Assembly (NCBI RefSeq): GCF_964204645.1
Contig: NC_134034.1
Span: 5,327,414-5,391,413 of the forward strand
DNA length: 64,000 bases
From: Tubulanus polymorphus
Taxonomy: Eukaryota; Nemertea; Palaeonemertea; Tubulaniformes; Tubulanidae
Reading direction: 5' to 3'
Shown here: one piece after another, positions 1,509-45,634 of the stretch
Position numbering within the stretch: position 1 is the first letter of the stretch
Layout: the number at the start of each line of letters is the position of its first letter
Notes under the pieces: generated by a model
Told to the model about the DNA's origin: nothing
Seen by the model: only the letters and a program-made list of their open reading frames with translations
The model's database searches: none
Made by a program: the position numbers and the translations under genes

Positions 1509-1713
1509 GACAATTGACAGATATATAAAATATTACCCAATAAAATAGATATTTAATTTCAAACGGTTGCTTCAAGTAAAATCATTTGTAGTGCTGATTA
1601 AATAGGTGCGTGACAATTGACAGATATATAAAATATTACCCAATAAAATAGATATTTAAATTCAAACGGTTGCTTCAAGTAAAATCATTTGTAGTGCTGA
1701 TTAAATAGGTGCG
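1509..1713. repeat. Tandem duplication of ~103 bp in LINE 3' end
   Basis: Two nearly identical units (1509-1611 and 1612-1713) cover the last codons, the stop and part of the 3' UTR of the LINE. Both units keep the sequence coding for FNQHYK-stop. Confidence 0.9.
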
Positions 1714-4131
1714 TTTTCAATTGCGAGGTAAAACTATTAAGGGAAGATAAATCGCGCATCGACTGTGGCAAAGCATTCCAAAGGCGGGGGGCTACCACCG
1801 CAAAAGCTCGAGAGCCATAAAATTCTTGGCGGTATCTCGGTTCAAATAATTTAGTTGCCACGGTCGAGCGCGTGTGTCTGGAAGGTGTAAGAGTGGTTAA
1901 AACAGACGAAAGATAGGCTGGAGCTTGGTCATGCAAAATTTTAAAAGTTAACAGGAGAATTTTGTATTCAATGCGCGATTGAACAGGGAGCCAATGTAGT
2001 TCATACAGTATAGGAGTGATATGCTCGTGCTTCTTAGTTAGAGTGACTAGGCGTGCGGCAGAATTTTGAAGCATTTGTAGGCGAGAAATATAACAATTCG
2101 GAAGACCGTAGAGAAGACTATTACAGTAATCTAATTTGGAAGTTATAAAGGCGTGAATCAATCTTTCGGTGCTAGTGCGATCTAAAAGTTTGCGTATTTT
2201 ACCAATGCGATGCAGGGAGTAAGAAATCGATCTACAGACGTAAGATATATGACAAGACATGGTAAAATTATGATCGAAATAAAAGCCAAGATCTCTGACT
2301 GACTGACAAGTAGCTATACTGTCATCTCCTATTCTAATACTTGATAGCTTGTCTCCCTTACGAAATTTTGACGTAAAATGTATAACCTCTGTCTTACTAT
2401 CATTAAAAACAAGTCTATTGCACTTCAACCATTCCTTTATTTCGTCAACACACTTCTCAACTCTTGATTTAGAAGCTGCACAACTCTTGCAGACGAAATA
2501 AATCTGGGTATCATCGGCATATAACATTAAGATTAAGTCGAGTTTATGTTTAATAATAATTTCTTCGATTGGTGCAAGATATAAACTGAAAAGTGTAGGG
2601 CCTAGTACACTCCCCTGAGGTACACCACACATGAGTTTAACATTTTGAAATGACGATCCGTCAATCACGACACGCTGATACCTATTTTCTAAATATGACC
2701 TAAACCATTCTAAAGGAACATCTTTCACTCCATACCGATTCTGTAATCTATTCAATAGAATACCGTGATCTATGGTGTCAAAAGCCGCAGTTAGATCTAA
2801 TAAGACGAGCACTACTTCATCGTGATTATCAAGAGCTAAGAAAATATCATTGTGTACTTTTAAAACTGCCGTTTCGGTGCTATGGAACTTCCTATAGGCA
2901 GACTGAAATGTTGAGAAGAGGTTATTATCGGATAAATACTGACTCAAATCATTCAATACATGCCGCTCTATAGCTTTACTGATAAAAGGTAGATTAGAGA
3001 CAGGTCGATAGTTACATAAAACATTTGAATTAAGACCTGGCTTTTTCAACATTGGCCTGAGTGTTGCTATTTTGAAAGTGTCAGGAACTGTGCCCTCAGT
3101 GAGGGACAAGTTAAAAATATCGACTAACTTTGGTAAAACTTCAGGTAAACATTGTTTTAGAAAAGTAGTGGGAATCGGATCAATTGAACATGACTTATTG
3201 GTCATTGAAGTGATAATGTCGTTGAGAGACTTTTCAGTAACCGTACTAAAACTATTGAAGGAATGACCAAGATCTATAAAAGGAAACCGAGGGAGTGGTA
3301 CATCAATAAAAGAATTACATAGTTTGCCAATTTTCACAACAAAAAAATCAGAAAATCGATTAGCCAGTTCTTTGGGATTGCTGTGCTCTGGCGGCGCGGA
3401 AATTACAGACTTCTTATCACTTGTCCATTCATCGACAAGGGTGAATAACTTTCTCTGATCGGTACAGTCTGCTATCCGACCGCGATGATAGGATCTTGAG
3501 GCTTCTTGCAACAAACTATGGTACTCAATCCGATTGGCATGATAAATCTGTTTATCGACCTCTAATTTGGATGAGATCCACTTCCGTTCGTGGCTACGTA
3601 AAACACGCCTAGCAGCCTGGAGATTGGGTCCATACCATGGAGCGCGAGGCTTATCGGTGAAAGTTTTAGTCTTTTCTGGCGCTAGATAGTCCAAAACTGA
3701 CTTCATCTTAGCATCATAGTCATTCGCCAAAGAATTAACAGTCCCGGTCTCGGTATTCTCAAAAGATATGTTGCGAACTGTTTCCAGTAACACGTTCTTA
3801 TCCACCGCTCGGAGGTTCCTGGACACATGTTCGACCGTCAACGGAAACGGTTTAGATAAAAACGAATTAAATACAATAAGACTATGATCTGACGTCAATG
3901 GCGTATCAACGATAAAATTTGATACACATTTATCGGTTTCACGAGTGATCACTAAGTCTAGGGTGTGGCCCTTCTGATGGGTCGGTCCTTGTAAATGTTG
4001 GACGAACCCATAACTGCGTAATAGATCAAGAAACTGTTGGGCATCGCGTCGCACGGTATCGTCAACGTGAAAATTGAAATCACCAACTATTATCAAACGA
4101 CCTGGCGATATCAAAAAAGTCTCAAGGAACG
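1685..4131 (-). CDS. LINE ORF2: partial endonuclease plus reverse transcriptase
   Basis: A long uninterrupted frame (about 815 codons) is open from the 5' truncation point. It starts inside an APE-type endonuclease (GDFNFHVD, then HTLDLVIT, then TSDHSLIVF). The reverse transcriptase follows, with CNYRPVSNLPFISKAIE, STFQSAYRKFHSTETA, the catalytic LDLTAAFDTIDH, GVPQGSVLGPTLFSLYL, and the active-site box YADDT. The C-terminal part has the LDYCNSLLYGLP...LHWLPV block and ends LKTHLFNQHYK, as in CR1/L2-like elements. Reverse transcription of element RNA at the nicked target is the family's known role. The absence of stops suggests a recent insertion, though truncation of the endonuclease makes this copy unable to act alone. 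No conventional start is needed because the 5' end is missing. Confidence 0.93.
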
Positions 4132-4133
4132 TT

Positions 4134-4524
4134 GAAAATGGCGAGGGTAATCACACATATATCAAAATCGCATCGCGACCGCGTTAGAAGGAACGGTAGC
4201 ACTTATGTCGGCTTGATTCGTTCGTATGAGCCGGAGGGAGTGCTTCGGACGGTTTTCCCGAGCCTCCCTACCGCTAGTTTCGTGTCGGACGTCGGACTGG
4301 ATGAGACTAGAGAATCGTCAGTGTCGGAACTCCCGAAGAAGTTCCCATTTTTTTCGCTGCCGCCGCCGCCACCTCCGCCGCCGTATTCACCACCTCCGCC
4401 GCCTAGTTCGCCGCCTCCGCCCATCGAAACACCTACGTTGTTCGATTGTCTGAACATTCCGCTACCAGGACAAGCTGCGCTGTGCAGCTTTGATGTGTCG
4501 ACTGAGATCATTCTCGACGGTTGA
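4134..4524 (+). pseudogene. 3' part of the split zinc-finger / proline-rich gene
   Basis: This continues, in the same frame, the coding region interrupted at 1419. It begins with the GAAAAT duplication and encodes KMARVITHISKSHRD, supplying the two His of the C2H2 finger begun before the LINE. It then runs through a basic segment and a proline-rich tract (residues from about 75 to 100 of this part, built of PPPP runs broken by Y or S), and stops at 4522-4524. The GC-rich proline tract differs in composition from the surrounding AT-rich DNA. Alternatively a short intron starts near 4518 and coding continues after the acceptor at 4577. The function is unknown; the zinc finger suggests nucleic-acid binding. 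Confidence 0.6.
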
Positions 4525-35350: not shown

Positions 35351-36099
35351 TAATTTTCACAAAGAATAATTGGTTTAAATTATTTCAACCGGTGAATTCA
35401 TTAGTAGTGAAAAGTGTCATTGAAAATATATTTGTTTTAAGAATTCTAAAAAGATTGCAATTGCAAAAGAAAATTTCTTTGATATTGCAGTGTCAATTAA
35501 TGATAAATGCCATTCTTAGTAACGGCTCTTGGCCAAATTGAGTATTCCCTAAATATTAATATCGTTTAAGCTTGAGCAGAGACACCGCAGTAGACACCGC
35601 TGTAGTTTTATAGAAACGTATCAATGTATAACCAGGGAAGTGTGATGAGATGGAATACGGACGCTATTGTGCAGCTCTTGTCGAATGTGCGTTGTAATTG
35701 CCCTAAAGCCGACAACGGTTCGTCGGCGAGCGCTTTGTTACGTAACGCGCCGATAAGCGATAACCAGCGAGATCGGGAATCTCCGTAATAATTCAGTTGT
35801 TTCCGAATATCGGTTTTTCATCCCATAATAAACTTACATAAAAATTCCTCTGTAAACTGGTTAAACTCAACACCTGATTTCCCCTCATCAATTTTAGTCG
35901 ATCAACTTGTATTCACAATTGTCTTAAATTTAAGTACCCCCTAGTTTGTCTCTTAACTGCTTCTCTTTAATCTGTTTTAGCGTGTAACTGTTTCTACGTT
36001 AATTTTCCTTTAGTTTGTATCATCTCTGATTACTTGAATTAGTCTCTTTGTCTCTGGATTGTATATATCTCTCATAATTTCTGTAGTATTCATTATTTC

Positions 36100-36215
36100 T
36101 GAAGATGACTATTAGGACATAGACGAAACGTTGAATAAACTACTAACATTTTTGGACTTTTTCGTTATCATTGTGCGATTCTCTCTACATCGCTTCAGAC
36201 GGATATAGTGTTTTA
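36100..36215 (+). repeat. Dispersed short repeat, copy 3 (inside the TIR element)
   Basis: Contains CTGAAGATGACTATTAGGAC, CGAAACGTTGAATAAACTAC, TTGGACTTTTTC and GTGCGATTCTCTC as in the copy at 29036-29208. It ends about 35 bases before the first ATG of the plus-strand transposon gene. Confidence 0.7.
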
Positions 36216-36250
36216 TCAATCGTGATATCGGTTCTTTCCGCTGTATTAAA

Positions 36251-36865
36251 ATGGCAACGGTTGTCAACGAAATTATAAATGATGACGATTTTGACGAACT
36301 ATTCTTTGATAGTGACGAATTGGTTCAGATCGATACGGAAATATTACGGGAATCCTCTGGATCAGGATCAACTAATTCGGCCGATTCTAGTGAGTGTTAT
36401 TCCTTTTGAATCAATGTAATATCGGAATAGTTTCCACCTAATTGCAGGCACTTTATTCTTTCCTTTTCTTTTTCATATAGGTACTTCTCAGGCTCAGCTG
36501 ACCAGAGACTGCGATCTGAACACGAGAAAACACACATACAGGTATTTTTTACATTTATTTTTATAATCAATACAATCCTTTTAGGTTATAAAATAATAAA
36601 CGAATACAGAAAATAATATATAAACATAATATAAAAAATCCAGATAAGTACATGTTAAAATAATAATCATTATTATTATTTTCGCAGGAACACTATATAT
36701 TTGGAAAAGGCTATGACTGAAGTGATTAACCATCGAGTATTTAAATTCAGTTCAAATGGAATGGCAGCAGTACATTATGGAAAATCGATCGATAAAATTT
36801 TGACTTCAAATACGTCGCCGTCCAGACTTGGAATTAACCAGTGGTTTACATGTCCATTGTTTTAA
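36251..36865 (+). CDS. Three-exon gene of the TIR transposon, 125 aa, unknown function
   Basis: Exon 1 36251-36389 (ATG after AAA), donor GTGAGT; exon 2 36481-36541 after CATATAG, donor GTATTT; exon 3 36688-36865 after TTTTCGCAG, stop TAA. The exon lengths 139, 61 and 178 add to 378 bases, an exact open frame. The protein begins MATVVNEIINDDDFDELFF, with an acidic, Ser-rich N-terminal half. The C-terminal half is basic/aromatic (YLEKAMTEVINHRVFKF). No domain recognised. The last ~20 codons lie antisense to the minus-strand gene, so the true C-terminus may have been lost by an internal deletion near 36800. Convergent two-gene layout recalls RAG1-like/RAG2-like pairs in ProtoRAG (known), but nothing here looks like RAG2. 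Confidence 0.6.
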
Positions 36866-37084
36866 TTTGATAGTCACAGGGACAGTTTTTTTAACGTTTT
36901 CGTTCTTACGCCATTTTTGTAATTTGACACGACACATATAACAGATATATATCGGGTACTGTTCAGCATCATCATCAAAATCAATGTTGAACAACTCCTT
37001 CACATGGCTTTTGAAATTATTTTTATCGATAGGACGACGATCCGGAGGTTTCGCATTTTTTCCACACAATCGACAAAGATCCAT
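36806..37084 (-). CDS. Zinc-binding protein resembling the N-terminal region of RAG1
   Basis: The ATG at 37084-37082 follows an acceptor-like TTCTTGTTTTTAG, so an upstream noncoding exon is possible. The 92-residue protein begins MDLCRLCGKN (C-x2-C). It continues KELFNIDFDDDAEQYP, then IYICYMCRVKLQKW (second C-x2-C near residues 51-54), then VTIKLKQWTC. The order LCRxCG...FxID...P..(F/I)C..C...L and the following V-T/I-x-W segment resemble the Cys-rich N-terminal part of vertebrate RAG1. That part is known to occur in transposon proteins of molluscs and other invertebrates (the N-RAG-TP group). Insect ZAD fingers share the CxxC...CxxC layout and are an alternative. It lacks any catalytic core: either a real small protein or a truncated transposase. 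Confidence 0.6.
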   Translation of the reverse strand: MDLCRLCGKNAKPPDRRPIDKNNFKSHVKELFNIDFDDDAEQYPIYICYMCRVKLQKWRKNENVKKTVPVTIKLKQWTCKPLVNSKSGRRRI

Positions 37085-37793
37085 GACTAAAAACAAGAAA
37101 AGGTTATTAAATGAGATTGCTGATGCTATTTAGGCAACTTGGTTTATATGGGGGACAATAACTTGTAGGCCTAATGTAAGCGTTATTAAGTAACATTATT
37201 ATGTAGTAAATACACATTTTAAAGATCATACTTCGTGTATATGTTTGTGTCGTAACATAGCAACATGACGTCAGAAACAAAAGCTGCGCGAGTCTGGGCC
37301 GAAATATTTGACATCTTCAAGGCCCAAATAACGCTAAACCCGGAATCGGAACGAACTGGCAAAAACATATGTTTAACACATAAAAACAGACTTTAATCAC
37401 AATATAAATACTTAATGTTCCGATACCGGGTTTCGGAGATATAGAAGGATAAAAATACATACCTTTTTGGACAAATTTTTCGAGAAATTGTTGAATTTCA
37501 ACCGATTTTCTAAAGAAAAATATGTGTATACACAGCCACTTCCACGTTGTTCAATGAACTGCAGTGCGCATGCGTAGTATCGATCGCAGAACATTTATCG
37601 GGCTAAAACTATTGCGGGTTGTTCTGCGACCAAATCAAAGTTGATGTTGACTGGTGTTCAGCTGGTAACACACACTCGATAAGCGTAGCTTACTGCTGTT
37701 GCGGTAACCTTTGATGTACGGGCTGAATTGAATAGCCTACATCCGGCAATTAAAAGCGTCCGTATTCCATCTCATCACACTTCCCTGGTATAA

Positions 37794-39618
37794 CTAAGAC
37801 GATTTATTTACCATTACTATTGCATATAGCTTGAAGGTTTATCGATAGATATGACTTGCGGTTGATGTAGGCAGTCATTTTGCACTCGGCCTTCGTTTGC
37901 GGTTGCGAGTCCCATCTATGCACCGGTATGAGAATTTCCAGCGGATCCGCGGTTTCCAGCGGATTTCGGTGTATTGAAAAATATCATTTTCCATATAGTC
38001 CAAAAATGATGTATCAGTCGGCTGATCCGTTGCGATTGGTAATCGGGTGAACCGTAAAAGTGTTCAGCGCCAATTTTACTTGTCGCGACTGACTTTGTTT
38101 CAACTACGATGTGTAGGTATTTTATCGATCGGGTTGAAGACACAAGCGCGTGGCAACAACAGTAATGTATATAGGCCTACTACTGTTGCTGCGTGCGTAC
38201 GTGGCGAACACCTTCAGGTATTATACGCTGTGTGATGATTTTTAGTGAGCTTCATCAGCGCATTTAATCCGCAAATTTTCAGGGCTCGACCCGTAATGCA
38301 TGAGATGCTCATAACCATCGAATGAGGATGTGCCAGATTGGAAATAGCCAATGCCATTACCTTCCAAAATATGATAGCCATTCGAGATCGTTTTAAGTGC
38401 TCGGAAAACGCTTTTAATTTCTAAAATTTTCATGGGGGAGGGCCCCCAAAAACGTATAAATGTTCATACAAAGATTTTTCGAATGACCGCTAATGCAAGC
38501 ATCCAATGAAGGTAAAAGAAAATTAAAATAATTTTCAAAATAATTTTCAAAAACGTGAAAGTGTTTTATTGTGAAATTTTAATTATGTCAATAAAGAATG
38601 AAATAAATTAGCATCAGCACTATGTCGCGCATGAATACCAATTTCAAGAATGATCCTGCACGCTCGACCAAGGTTGGTTTGGGCTGCTGAAATAACAAAA
38701 CCGATTAAATAAACTCATTAAACAAAGAAAACGACAACCGACATAGCCAATACACGAAAGGAACCTAGATTTTATTACTGCATTAAAATGTGTGTATATA
38801 TCAGAGCCCAAGAAAGTTTCTAATGAAAGTTATCGACTCCCCAAGCAAGTTATCAAACCATGGGATAGCAATATGGGCTTGCAAGCCTGCAACCCCATAA
38901 AAATGTTTTTTTTTCTCAAAATTAAATTCCATTACTAATTAAGGCGGGATTTTAAAAAATGAAACTATTTTTGGAGGTAGTCATGGGATTATGATATCCG
39001 AATATTGTCTATTTGCTGCCCTCATTCGTAACAAACACCGCCATTCTTGCAAGTGACACTATTTACTGACGAACCCGACCAATATATCCATTAGGAGAAT
39101 CATTGTTCACCGCGTTCTTTTTGTGTGGCACGTCCAAAGATGATGTGGATGTGGAAAAAAATTATGAATGTTTGTATTCATTTCCATATCTATGCTTAAG
39201 AATAAGGGGGCGGCGGGAAAAAGTAAAATTAAGTTTTCCCTTTTATACCTAGAATCGGAAAAACCTCGGATCCGTAATCCAACCAATAATAAAAAATCGG
39301 CCTCGATTTACTCTCTGCCGGAAGGGACTCTGGTGTTAGATCTTATCCATCGGATTACTTCACTCGTAAAACCACTCTGGTCAACAGAATGTTTTGTGAA
39401 CAGAATTCAAACAGATATTGTACCCGTTCGTTATATTCCTCGGCTTAAATGTCATAGAGGATAGTTCTTTGTATAGGCCTAAATAATTCTACCACCAAAT
39501 CAACTAATGATAACATTTTCGCTTCTTGTCAGTGAACTGTGCACATAAATCCTGTGGTCCTCACGTGTGTGTCTTGAAAACAAAACAAGAACAATCAGAT
39601 CCCATCAACTATATTCTC
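37794..39618. other. No supported gene
   Basis: Noncoding between the TIR transposon and the GPCR. The minus frame 38242-38433 and plus frame 39168-39464 are open but not recognisable. Confidence 0.4.
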
Positions 39619-40590
39619 CTAGAGCAAAAACAACAATTTTGTACGTTCTCTAAACTTCCTACTGTACACATAATAAAATATACCGTTAAGAGATGAATTT
39701 AGGGCTTGGAAAATATCACTAGCGAGTAATACCGGCCAAGTGGCAGACCAGGGGAAATGAAGTCTTAAAACATTGAATAACATACCAGGGCTTACAGTCA
39801 CCATGAATATAATGGATGCCACCAGCACCATGGTATGTGCAGTTCCATCTTGTTTGTGTTGTTTGGCATTGGCACCAGTCAATTGTTTCCTATTCTGAGC
39901 ATGGATCCGAAGTTTGATTATCATAATCATATTAAATATAGGAACGAGAGTGAATGGCAAATATGACGTAAAAATAGCTACTAATAAATACGAATACCTG
40001 GGTGGAGTATAAATTGTCTTCGAATCACGGACAGTGAGGCCGTATGTACATATCTTGTTAACGTACACTACAATTCGGTCTTGTGCTCGATATGAAGTAA
40101 CCCCACTCCATGCGAGAATCCAAACCGCTGAGAATAAACAACAATGTTTCACATTCCAATATCTTTTAGCTTTAAGCGGGAAACAAATATTAAATGCTCG
40201 ATCGAATGTTACCAACAAGGTCAAACTGTTGCGAATATCAGAACTCCATTTTCCAATGACGTTGCCCGCCATATAAAATTCAGGAGCTCCCAAACCTCCA
40301 TGTAGATAGGCTCCAATGTCTCCATGGCGAATAAGTCTCAGAAGCCAAGTTAGATGGTTAAACATTATGATTGCGAAGCAACAGATGATGTCTGAAATAG
40401 CCAGTAACAATAAAGTGAAATGCGAGGTCGAGGAAATGTTCGTTTTATGAAGTTGATAAAGCACCTTTATAGTAATTGAGTTGGTAATAAGGCCAATCCA
40501 TGCGATCGGTCCTATCAACGTCGTTGCAACGAGCTTCCAAACTACGCGATCGCGGGTAAGGCATATTTTCGCAATAGTCGCGTTCAACAT
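39619..40590 (-). CDS. Class A (rhodopsin-like) G protein-coupled receptor, intronless, 323 aa
   Basis: A plasma-membrane seven-helix receptor that would signal through G proteins; the ligand is unknown. Helices fall near residues 19-46, 55-80, 105-131, 148-167, 198-226, 251-278 and 286-310. Class A landmarks: Asn37 in TM1, Asp67 in TM2 (LLLAISD), a DRA triplet at 130-132 in place of DRY, Trp157 in TM4, and NGIFY at 302-306 in place of NPxxY. Asn3 in MLNATI is a possible glycosylation site. A Cys occurs in the second extracellular loop (KICTYG), but I see no partner Cys at the start of TM3. The TM6 CWxP motif is absent (TVSPGM). The single-exon frame has no defects. It fits invertebrate orphan peptide-receptor-like or chemosensory-type receptors; no finer name is justified. 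Confidence 0.88.
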   Translation of the reverse strand: MLNATIAKICLTRDRVVWKLVATTLIGPIAWIGLITNSITIKVLYQLHKTNISSTSHFTLLLLAISDIICCFAIIMFNHLTWLLRLIRHGDIGAYLHGGLGAPEFYMAGNVIGKWSSDIRNSLTLLVTFDRAFNICFPLKAKRYWNVKHCCLFSAVWILAWSGVTSYRAQDRIVVYVNKICTYGLTVRDSKTIYTPPRYSYLLVAIFTSYLPFTLVPIFNMIMIIKLRIHAQNRKQLTGANAKQHKQDGTAHTMVLVASIIFMVTVSPGMLFNVLRLHFPWSATWPVLLASDIFQALNSSLNGIFYYVYSRKFRERTKLLFLL

Positions 40591-40599
40591 ATTTCAAGT

Positions 40600-43987: not shown

Positions 43988-43997
43988 ATTTCATTAG

Positions 43998-45634
43998 GAC
44001 AAGGCAATAGAGTACACGACACAGAAAACCTTCTTGCGAGTGAAGATGCCGCAACAGCAGAAAGAGTACAAGAACAAACGACACAGACAGACTTATCTGA
44101 AGATTATCTGAAACAACTGAATTTATTAAAAGAACAGCTGAAAAATGTCGAAAAGGAAAATGGCAATCTAAAAATCATTAATAGTCGCTTAGAAAACATA
44201 ATGACGGATAATAATGTTTTTACTATCTCTGAAGGTTCTCTAGATGATATATTCAAAGCTAGTATTGCATCAGGTTCTCGAACAAATGAACATCATTTTT
44301 GTAAACTGGAAAAACCAAACATCCATTTCAGAGACAGACTGAGAGCTTCCAAAGCAAAATCAATACTACAATTTATTTCACCCAAAGACCAAAGTATTAC
44401 TGAGGCTGCTAAATTAATTGCACATATGTTGAAGAAAGATGAGAATCTGAAAAATCTTGTAATCAATGAATTTCCAGAAATGAAAGGAACTAAGCTCACT
44501 CCTGAACAGTCAGTTGACTTGAAACTGAATTTGCATCTTACAATGACCAAAATGCTAGAATTAGACCGTAACTTGAAAATTCAAAATCTAAAGGTGTTTC
44601 CCTCATCAGATAAGATTCGAGCAGAACTAAAAAAACACAGTAATCACATCGATCAGAAAATATTCACTGGCGAAATGAATTTGGTGATCAATGCTCGAAC
44701 GCTAGAAGAAAAACTTGTCCCCTATGTATACATAGTGAATTTTAAATCCCATCTTAAATACGTTGTTAACAATTTGATAGTCACCAGAAAATTTGTGACG
44801 GATGAGCATTTTCATGATGAAATTTGGGTAAAGATCGGAGCCGATAAAGGCGGTGACTCTTCGAAGCTAGTACTGTCTGTACTAAATAGTACACTAATAA
44901 ACAGTACCGATCACACCGAGTTGATTTCATATTTCGAAGCTTTAGCTATAAGATTTTTTCTGATCGGCGATTTAGCTTTTCTGTGTACATGTATGGGCCA
45001 CCAGGGTTCATCGGCTTCTTATCCAAGCCTTTGGTGTGAAATTAGATTGGAACAGCTGAGAAAACGTGATGGTAAACCACACACACCTGATCATATGGAG
45101 TGCAGTGTAGAACTGTAGCCGATTATAATGTCAATGCTGAAAAGCAGCAACCAGGGCAAAACCCAAAAAGCATTTGCAATAAAATGCTTGTGAGGATTGA
45201 CGATTTGGACCATTTAGTTCCTCCTCCACTGCACATATCTTTGGGGTTAGGCCTATTATTCTTTGAGATGTTGGAGCAGAAATGCCAGGAAGTCGACAAT
45301 GAAGGTTTGAAAGATTGGGATATCGATTTGTACAGGAACTGGAAAGAAAGATCCCTAGATGTATGTGCAGTGCAGGAGGAATTAAATCAGTACAAGGAAA
45401 TGATTGTGACGCTTAATCAAACTGTTGACCAACTAAAACAATCCAAAAAAAGGGTCATTGTGTTATTAGATTTGTCTGATAAGAAACATTCCAATTGCCA
45501 AACAAAATGATTTTGTTGAGTGCATTGATTGCCACTCCCCCTACCACAAGCGATGTATATTTGGACCTACAGCAAATTTCAAATGTATTGAATGGAATGT
45601 TGTACGGGGAAAACTATGTCAGCGGATAGTATAA
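43998..45634 (+). pseudogene. RAG1/Transib-core-like protein, frameshifted
   Basis: After an acceptor (TTTCATTAG, ending 43997) a frame is open to 45118. It starts with a coiled coil (LLKEQLKNVEKENGNLK) upstream of the first Met at 44201. Later come FPEMKGTKLTPEQSVDLKL, KVFPSSDKIRAELKK, KIGADKGGDSSKLVLSVLN (Asp215 from the Met) and FLIGDLAFLC (Asp257), then GHQGSSASYPSLWC. A shift within 45091-45117 leads to VPPPLHISLGLGLLFFEMLE, and another near 45470-45495 to NDFVECIDCHSPYHKRC, a PHD-like finger. GDxxFL-x2-xxG-GASx-xPxxxC followed by LHIxLGxxxxFFxxLE resembles the zinc-binding insertion of the RAG1/Transib DDE core (second Asp, C-x2-C region, LHxxIGxxxxFxxxxQ). I recall large uncharacterised families with this order in invertebrates. 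Assignment is inference. Confidence 0.55.

Follow-up and report, generated by a model that had tools for sequence, protein, structure and literature searches.

The window, the whole stretch of 64,000 nucleotides of Tubulanus polymorphus DNA analysed here, raises a question of affiliation: two convergent frames, one of them encoding a protein likened to the N-terminus of RAG1, led the first-pass annotation to propose that a transposon at this locus belongs to the Transib/RAG/ProtoRAG lineage or mimics it. To which family of mobile DNA does the element belong, and what is the zinc domain that it carries?

The limits of the element were set by genome alignment with its other copies. Their common sequence ends at query base 2162 and starts mostly at base 8 or slightly before it; because these are the usual limits across copies, the element is placed at 35633–37787 with a perfect repeat of 33 bp. 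The features of this copy are:

35626–35632: left target-site duplication, GTATAAC, the same letters standing at 37788–37794
35633–37787: transposon body, CAGGG...CCCTG, 2155 bp, ends set by alignment with other copies
35633–35665, plus strand: left terminal inverted repeat, 33 bp
36251–36389, plus strand: first exon of the second gene, which is convergent and truncated (open reading frame; splice site from sequence)
36481–36541, plus strand: exon 2 of the second gene (splice sites from sequence)
36688–36865, plus strand: exon 3 stump of the second gene
36806–37084, minus strand: 92-residue open reading frame with two CxxC pairs, the N-terminal zinc domain of the transposase, truncated at about residue 77
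about 36850: internal deletion junction, where about 3.67 kb of the long copies is missing (L001 1127–4797)
37755–37787, minus strand: right terminal inverted repeat, 33 bp
37788–37794: right target-site duplication, GTATAAC

Elsewhere in the window are a seven-helix receptor frame about 1.8 kb from the element (39619–40593, minus strand; Pfam 7tm_1 1.2e-7, Srw 8.9e-8), a frame of 821 codons that resembles a non-LTR retrotransposon in matching endonuclease and reverse transcriptase (1685–4150, minus strand), and a 376-codon frame matching DUF1280 (43988–45118, plus strand; 1.1e-19). Rfam and tRNA scans of the window gave no matches.

Searching the 268-Mb genome with the element returned at least 26 near-full-length copies (97–100% identity, the window's included) and at least 14 further partial copies, 13 of the 14 ending at query base 1225; both counts are lower bounds, drawn from the 40 of 1,166 candidates that were scored. 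The 23-bp element end, allowing up to two mismatches, occurs at 121 genomic places (61 forward, 60 reverse). Copy number alone suffices to exclude a chance origin, and with its inverted repeats, its flanking direct repeat and its near-full-length copies the element is the terminal-inverted-repeat transposon that had been annotated. It had also been called young-looking: the copies of the window's size (n = 19) differ by 1.2% on average, in keeping with that description, and the window's copy departs by 0.5% from the majority sequence of these. At G000:C4:18603060-18626656 two element ends face each other across 23.6 kb with element pieces between them, perhaps a nested or composite unit.

Exact 7-bp target duplications flank 29 of the 31 copies whose flanks were compared (the window's and L001–L030; 28 by script, plus L027, where a footprint adjoins the copy and GTCAAAC was recognised by eye on both sides). 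Of the remaining two, L007 has an 8-bp duplication and L001 lacks one; flanks matching over 5 bp were found in 0 of the 31. The annotated repeats are indeed long and perfect, but they measure 33 bp rather than 34, their supposed outermost bases being part of the target duplication; similarly TATAA, which had been taken for the duplication, is the core of the 7-bp GTATAAC. Sister elements L031, L035 and L038 have 7-bp duplications too, while L036 and L041 were left out of the count because their ends are not fixed well enough. Two members of the set, L005 and L006, are not independent: they are copies of a 181-bp miniature element (G000:C5), 35.5 kb apart and with mutually inverted target repeats, and look like an inverted segmental duplication of one insertion.

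A genome search with the terminal repeat was the check that the first-pass annotation proposed. Among the first 100 of the 121 places of the 23-bp end, pairs of ends standing further apart mark copies of 5.5–5.9 kb with the same ends: L001 and L002 (each 5,910 bp) and L003 (5,511 bp). These full-length copies encode a transposase different from that of the annotated lineage, one of the P superfamily. In L001 the sole P-type Pfam model over its cut-off is TNP-like_RNaseH_N (E 2.4e-26); RNaseH_C (1.7e-4), the Tnp_P_element HTH (5.8e-4) and the GBD, or GTP-binding insertion (0.03), fall under theirs. The N-terminus of the same protein matches zf-AD (E 5.7e-6; 26.9 bits in one search, 32 bits in another); in the PDB the L001 transposase matches nothing at E≤10 except the Drosophila P transposase (1.8e-7). 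The motifs FDEMK, VSDG and DPLEE follow one another in that order, the last being, by its motif, the presumed site of E531. The catalytic residues of P transposase are given as D230, D303 and E531 (PMC7776569), and alignment to the Drosophila protein lets FDEMK and VSDG be taken as the probable D230 and D303 sites. All three long copies are damaged in the sequence read: in L001 the transposase is interrupted by a late stop and the first exon of the second gene no longer keeps its frame, L002 has a frameshift near transposase residue 388, and L003 combines a frameshift in the third transposase exon with a deletion in the second gene.

It is here that the Transib/RAG affiliation can be weighed. 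An element of the N-RAG-TP type, working with RAG-like chemistry, would account for the convergent frames, the RAG1-NTD-like protein and the TATAA contained in the duplication. Transib and RAG-like elements, however, make 5-bp target duplications, whereas those here are of 7 bp with no 5-bp flank match in any copy; protostome RAG-like ends begin CAC (according to PMC7204232), whereas these termini read CAGGG; and the catalytic core is P-type, not RAG1-type. No RAG1 core above cut-off was found in this genome (nor in 14 control genomes), and among the matches shown at E≤1 for five second-gene family members there is no Kelch match of the RAG2L type. Duplication length, termini and transposase together rule the affiliation out in our judgement, leaving it hardly any chance of being right.

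Known P-superfamily elements (Drosophila P, Galileo, the THAP9 elements) resemble the present one in their P-type RNase H, although the match to the GTP-binding insertion is weak here (0.03), in their duplications of 7–8 bp and in their internally deleted derivatives; for Galileo, 7-bp target-site duplications are given in PMC4168063. By its catalytic core, as judged from these matches, the element is a P-superfamily variant and not a typical member: it is filed as a variant because THAP is absent, a domain like zf-AD and the RAG1 N-terminus standing in its place. The second, convergent gene is a further difference from the superfamily.

Signs of excision may be a further point of resemblance. 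Two abutting element ends, separated by no more than 15 bp, occur at 129 places, compared with 0 for a reversed control pattern (the pattern spans at most 35 bp; it is palindromic, so that each of the 129 places is matched once on the forward and once on the reverse strand). In a sample of 20, chosen from the 50 listed and favouring the window's end variant, exact 7-bp repeats flank 19; the matching arms are 11–19 bp long, longest where bases at the joint can be assigned to one arm as well as the other, and when the left arm is set at 20 bp, with the total again limited to 35 bp, the genome has no match. The centres vary in length and letters from place to place (50 listed, 20 inspected), and some of the listed footprints have GTAATG in place of GTGATG; their source may be a related family. 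Drosophila P transposase is described as cutting 17 bp inside its repeats with a 17-nt stagger (PMC7776569). Read as scars, the footprints would fit a P-type excision of this long-stagger kind, the repeat being cut some 17 nt from its end and the ends then joined.

That the 129 palindromes are instead tiny self-standing mobile units, a reading to which their 7-bp duplications might seem to point, appears very improbable: among the 50 listed and the 20 inspected the centres differ by place, and the arms end near 17 bp, as repair of a staggered cut would give. A 35-bp palindrome at a target shared with a full element also speaks against it. At this site (L044, G000:C8:4798900-4799200) the footprint directly adjoins the 2221-bp copy L027, and each of the two is flanked by GTCAAAC on either side, as if a single target had received two insertions and later lost one by excision.

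How the copy in the window relates to the long copies is seen by comparison with L001. To the left of the junction lie the first exons of the second gene, to the right the N-terminus of the transposase, and by this comparison both frames are truncated stumps left by one internal deletion. The plus-strand frame that had been annotated as a three-exon gene does join across GT-AG splice sites (125 codons and a stop), but it is cut off at the junction: its exon 3 stump matches residues 1–57 of the third-exon protein of L001 and then runs on past the junction to a chance stop. The convergent minus-strand frame with its two CxxC pairs also lies where it had been annotated, so that the convergence of the two frames stands, whereas calling them two genes is misleading, each ending at the junction. 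Two types of deletion occur, leaving copies of 2155 and 2221 bp; compared with the window's type, the 2221-bp copies retain a longer part of the second gene but a slightly shorter part of the transposase, and neither type can therefore be derived from the other by simple deletion. The earlier suggestion that the element may be non-autonomous agrees with this structure: the window's copy is internally deleted and would make no catalytic protein.

KP is a short repressor in Drosophila. The stump proteins might likewise repress the autonomous element, and of the 19 copies of the window's size 13 have an open zinc-domain frame; in the other 6, however, it is broken. Changes within it (5 synonymous, 14 non-synonymous) lie near the ratio of 3.6 expected without selection, and its variability (0.082) is not below that of the whole element (0.075). 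The stump frame thus shows no sign of selection, and the repressor reading, which the substitution pattern does not support, was dropped as improbable.

Together, the common ends, the 7-bp duplications, the P-type transposase of the long copies, the footprints and the single deletion joining the two stumps make it very likely that the element in the window derives by internal deletion from a DNA transposon of the P superfamily with two genes, and that this derivative is non-autonomous and was amplified recently.

The second gene, or its remains, lies on the opposite strand, in convergent orientation, at 15 of the 17 P-type loci read (L001, L002, L003, L031, L032, L034–L041, L066 and L067, the match being weak or short in L039, L041 and L067); L033 and L065 are without it, and L043, with pieces of second gene and zinc domain, was left out of the 17. 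THAP has 115 matches in this genome. One of them, in L066, lies about 2 kb upstream of P-type transposase matches on the same strand, and downstream of these the opposite strand carries an open reading frame that is a homologue of the second gene (hhalign 95%, score 55, shuffles reaching at most 18); L065, which holds the best RNase H match, has no THAP match listed there and is not counted as a THAP locus. The two-gene layout seems to be common to the THAP form and to the zf-AD/RAG1-like forms. Since the THAP-bearing L066 shares it with the zf-AD/RAG1-like loci, the simplest reading, with one THAP locus as its basis, is that the N-terminal domain may have been exchanged, as the shared layout suggests.

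The second protein itself exceeds no Pfam cut-off, and the PDB offers nothing useful for it. Two members touch Tnp_P_element_C (0.045 and 0.15, both under cut-off), and comparison with the joined C-terminal pieces of L065 gave 1.5% in hhalign, with a score of 20.8 against a shuffle maximum of 19.4. The gene encodes a conserved protein, only weakly similar to the P-transposase C-terminal domain. We considered whether it is that domain split off from the transposase; given the weak Pfam matches and the want of a match to the L065 C-terminus this was not adopted, and a transposase divided into two subunits is kept as a possibility.

What, then, is the zinc domain? At least three families of it occur in the genome: a (the window and L001–L003), b (L031–L034 and L038) and c (L035 and L040). 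The 92-residue window protein matches Pfam zf-AD (PF07776) at E 3.1e-7, with 31 bits against a curated cut-off of 28, and no RAG1 Pfam model at E≤10; the profile search put forward in the first-pass annotation as the check on its RAG1 identification therefore scores zf-AD and not RAG1. Family b matches zf-AD at 3.3e-6 (27.7 bits) and RAG1_imp_bd at 0.0027 (17.8 bits, cut-off 23.3), and family c matches zf-AD only (8.2e-5, 23.2 bits), all under cut-off; RAG1's own N-terminal domain also touches zf-AD under cut-off (E 0.0032). An open frame with two CxxC pairs in L042 has no Pfam match at E≤0.1. By these profile matches the zinc domain is in one superfamily with the insect ZAD and the RAG1 N-terminal domain.

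Within that superfamily the domain could be an ordinary ZAD, its likeness to RAG1 being no closer than that of any ZAD; the Pfam results for the window protein and for families b and c are all of the kind that this predicts. Structural databases give a different order. Against 177,635 PDB sequences, family b finds the RAG1 N-terminal domain (21wb) first, at 0.089, and the ZAD 7po9 second, at 0.64. A five-row family profile searched against the same set again places 21wb first, at E 6.5e-4, and returns no ZAD chain at E≤10. This E-value is the sum of two stretches, the better of which alone gives 0.11, and the next matches are USP12 chains at 0.008–0.011, which look like chance, followed by full-length RAG1 chains at 0.26; the single-stretch value and the USP12 chains weaken the RAG1 match of the profile. 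The window protein alone has no PDB match at E≤10, and its predicted structure has a pLDDT of 44.

Local hhalign comparisons of the P-type set gave 93% with human and mouse RAG1 and 1.3% with ZAD, the latter represented by two chains, a thin sample. Taken singly, families b and c reach 74–93% with RAG1, whereas the focal family stays at about 10% and scores low against both (L003, 9.9% RAG1 and 12.7% ZAD; window, 10.6% RAG1 and 3.2% ZAD). The RAG1 score of 42.0 was not approached in any of 200 shuffles holding the cysteines, and when CRICG and CHNCW were held 0 of 200 reached it, one coming near at 37.1. A RAG1-like tail past the second CxxC is convincing by eye but proved unusual in only two of six comparisons (b with human, 177/5000 shuffles; c with mouse, 8/5000), the other four being unremarkable against shuffles.

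A donor for an ordinary ZAD might be sought in the host. All 36 zf-AD matches listed at E≤0.001 in the genome fall at places of this transposon family, and among them there is no host ZAD zinc-finger gene (14 control genomes were likewise empty); Pfam RAG1_imp_bd has no match in the genome, the controls being empty too. We put the ordinary ZAD a little short of an even chance. That RAG1 is the nearer relative of the domain, the reading we prefer, appears to have moderate evidence in these comparisons. The annotated RAG1 N-terminus-like protein is in this sense partly upheld, by the first place of 21wb in both PDB searches and by the touch of family b on RAG1_imp_bd; against it stand the zf-AD match over cut-off and the missing RAG1 model for the window protein itself.

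With the RAG1 N-terminal domain (CND, residues 87–217) the domain shares a core, CRxCG ... F-ID...D...P..C..C, and the first place in the PDB profile search; it differs in standing on a P-type and not a Transib-type catalytic core, and in having its CxxC pairs closer together than RAG1, whose intervening stretch is longer. Chapaev/TransibSU has the Chapa domain, which is set beside the RAG1 domain, the sequence comparison being with RAG1 only. Like the insect ZAD, the window protein exceeds the zf-AD cut-off, but it belongs to a transposase, whereas the insect domain is found on a C2H2 zinc-finger transcription factor. The CND of RAG1 is described as coordinating zinc and binding DNA without detectable sequence specificity (PMC3124419).

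Mobilization might proceed as in Drosophila P. Transposase supplied by a long relative would bind the terminal repeats, with the zinc domain as its probable DNA-binding domain at the place that THAP takes in the Drosophila P transposase, and would cut the repeats with a long stagger, as that enzyme does; insertion would follow with a 7-bp stagger. The window's copy, which should encode no catalytic protein, would be mobilised in trans.

A transposon protein with RAG1 N-terminal resemblance has a precedent in N-RAG-TP of Aplysia, reportedly from the work of Panchin and Moroz in 2008. That protein is described as resembling the RAG1 N-terminus only (PMC8355894, PMC2996935), and it is by this description only that the present element is likened to it. 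According to a passage of Kapitonov and Koonin (2015; PMC4411706), the Chapa domain, the N-terminal part of RAG1, and the RING finger occur in no known transposable elements beyond the Transib superfamily. Among the titles and abstract openings listed from the open-licence literature, no RAG1-like or ZAD domain joined to a P transposase was found.

One joint reading, which we offer tentatively as possible rather than probable, would make the RAG1 N-terminal module a mobile DNA-binding domain swapped between transposon superfamilies. A P lineage would have lost THAP and now carry the module, and Aplysia N-RAG-TP would be a member of it that is partial or has undergone internal deletion. The front end of RAG1 and its Transib core may then trace back to two transposons that are unrelated, or have travelled by way of them, and the transposase of the same P lineage would be split into two convergent genes.

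A related domain heading P-type transposases would widen the range of Chapa as given in the passage of PMC4411706, and P-type elements with this domain would be a concrete candidate identity for N-RAG-TP. Where the N-terminus of RAG1 came from would then become testable, by trees and by DNA-binding assays. Should the footprints be true excision scars, the genome would preserve more than 100 natural ones left by a P-type element.
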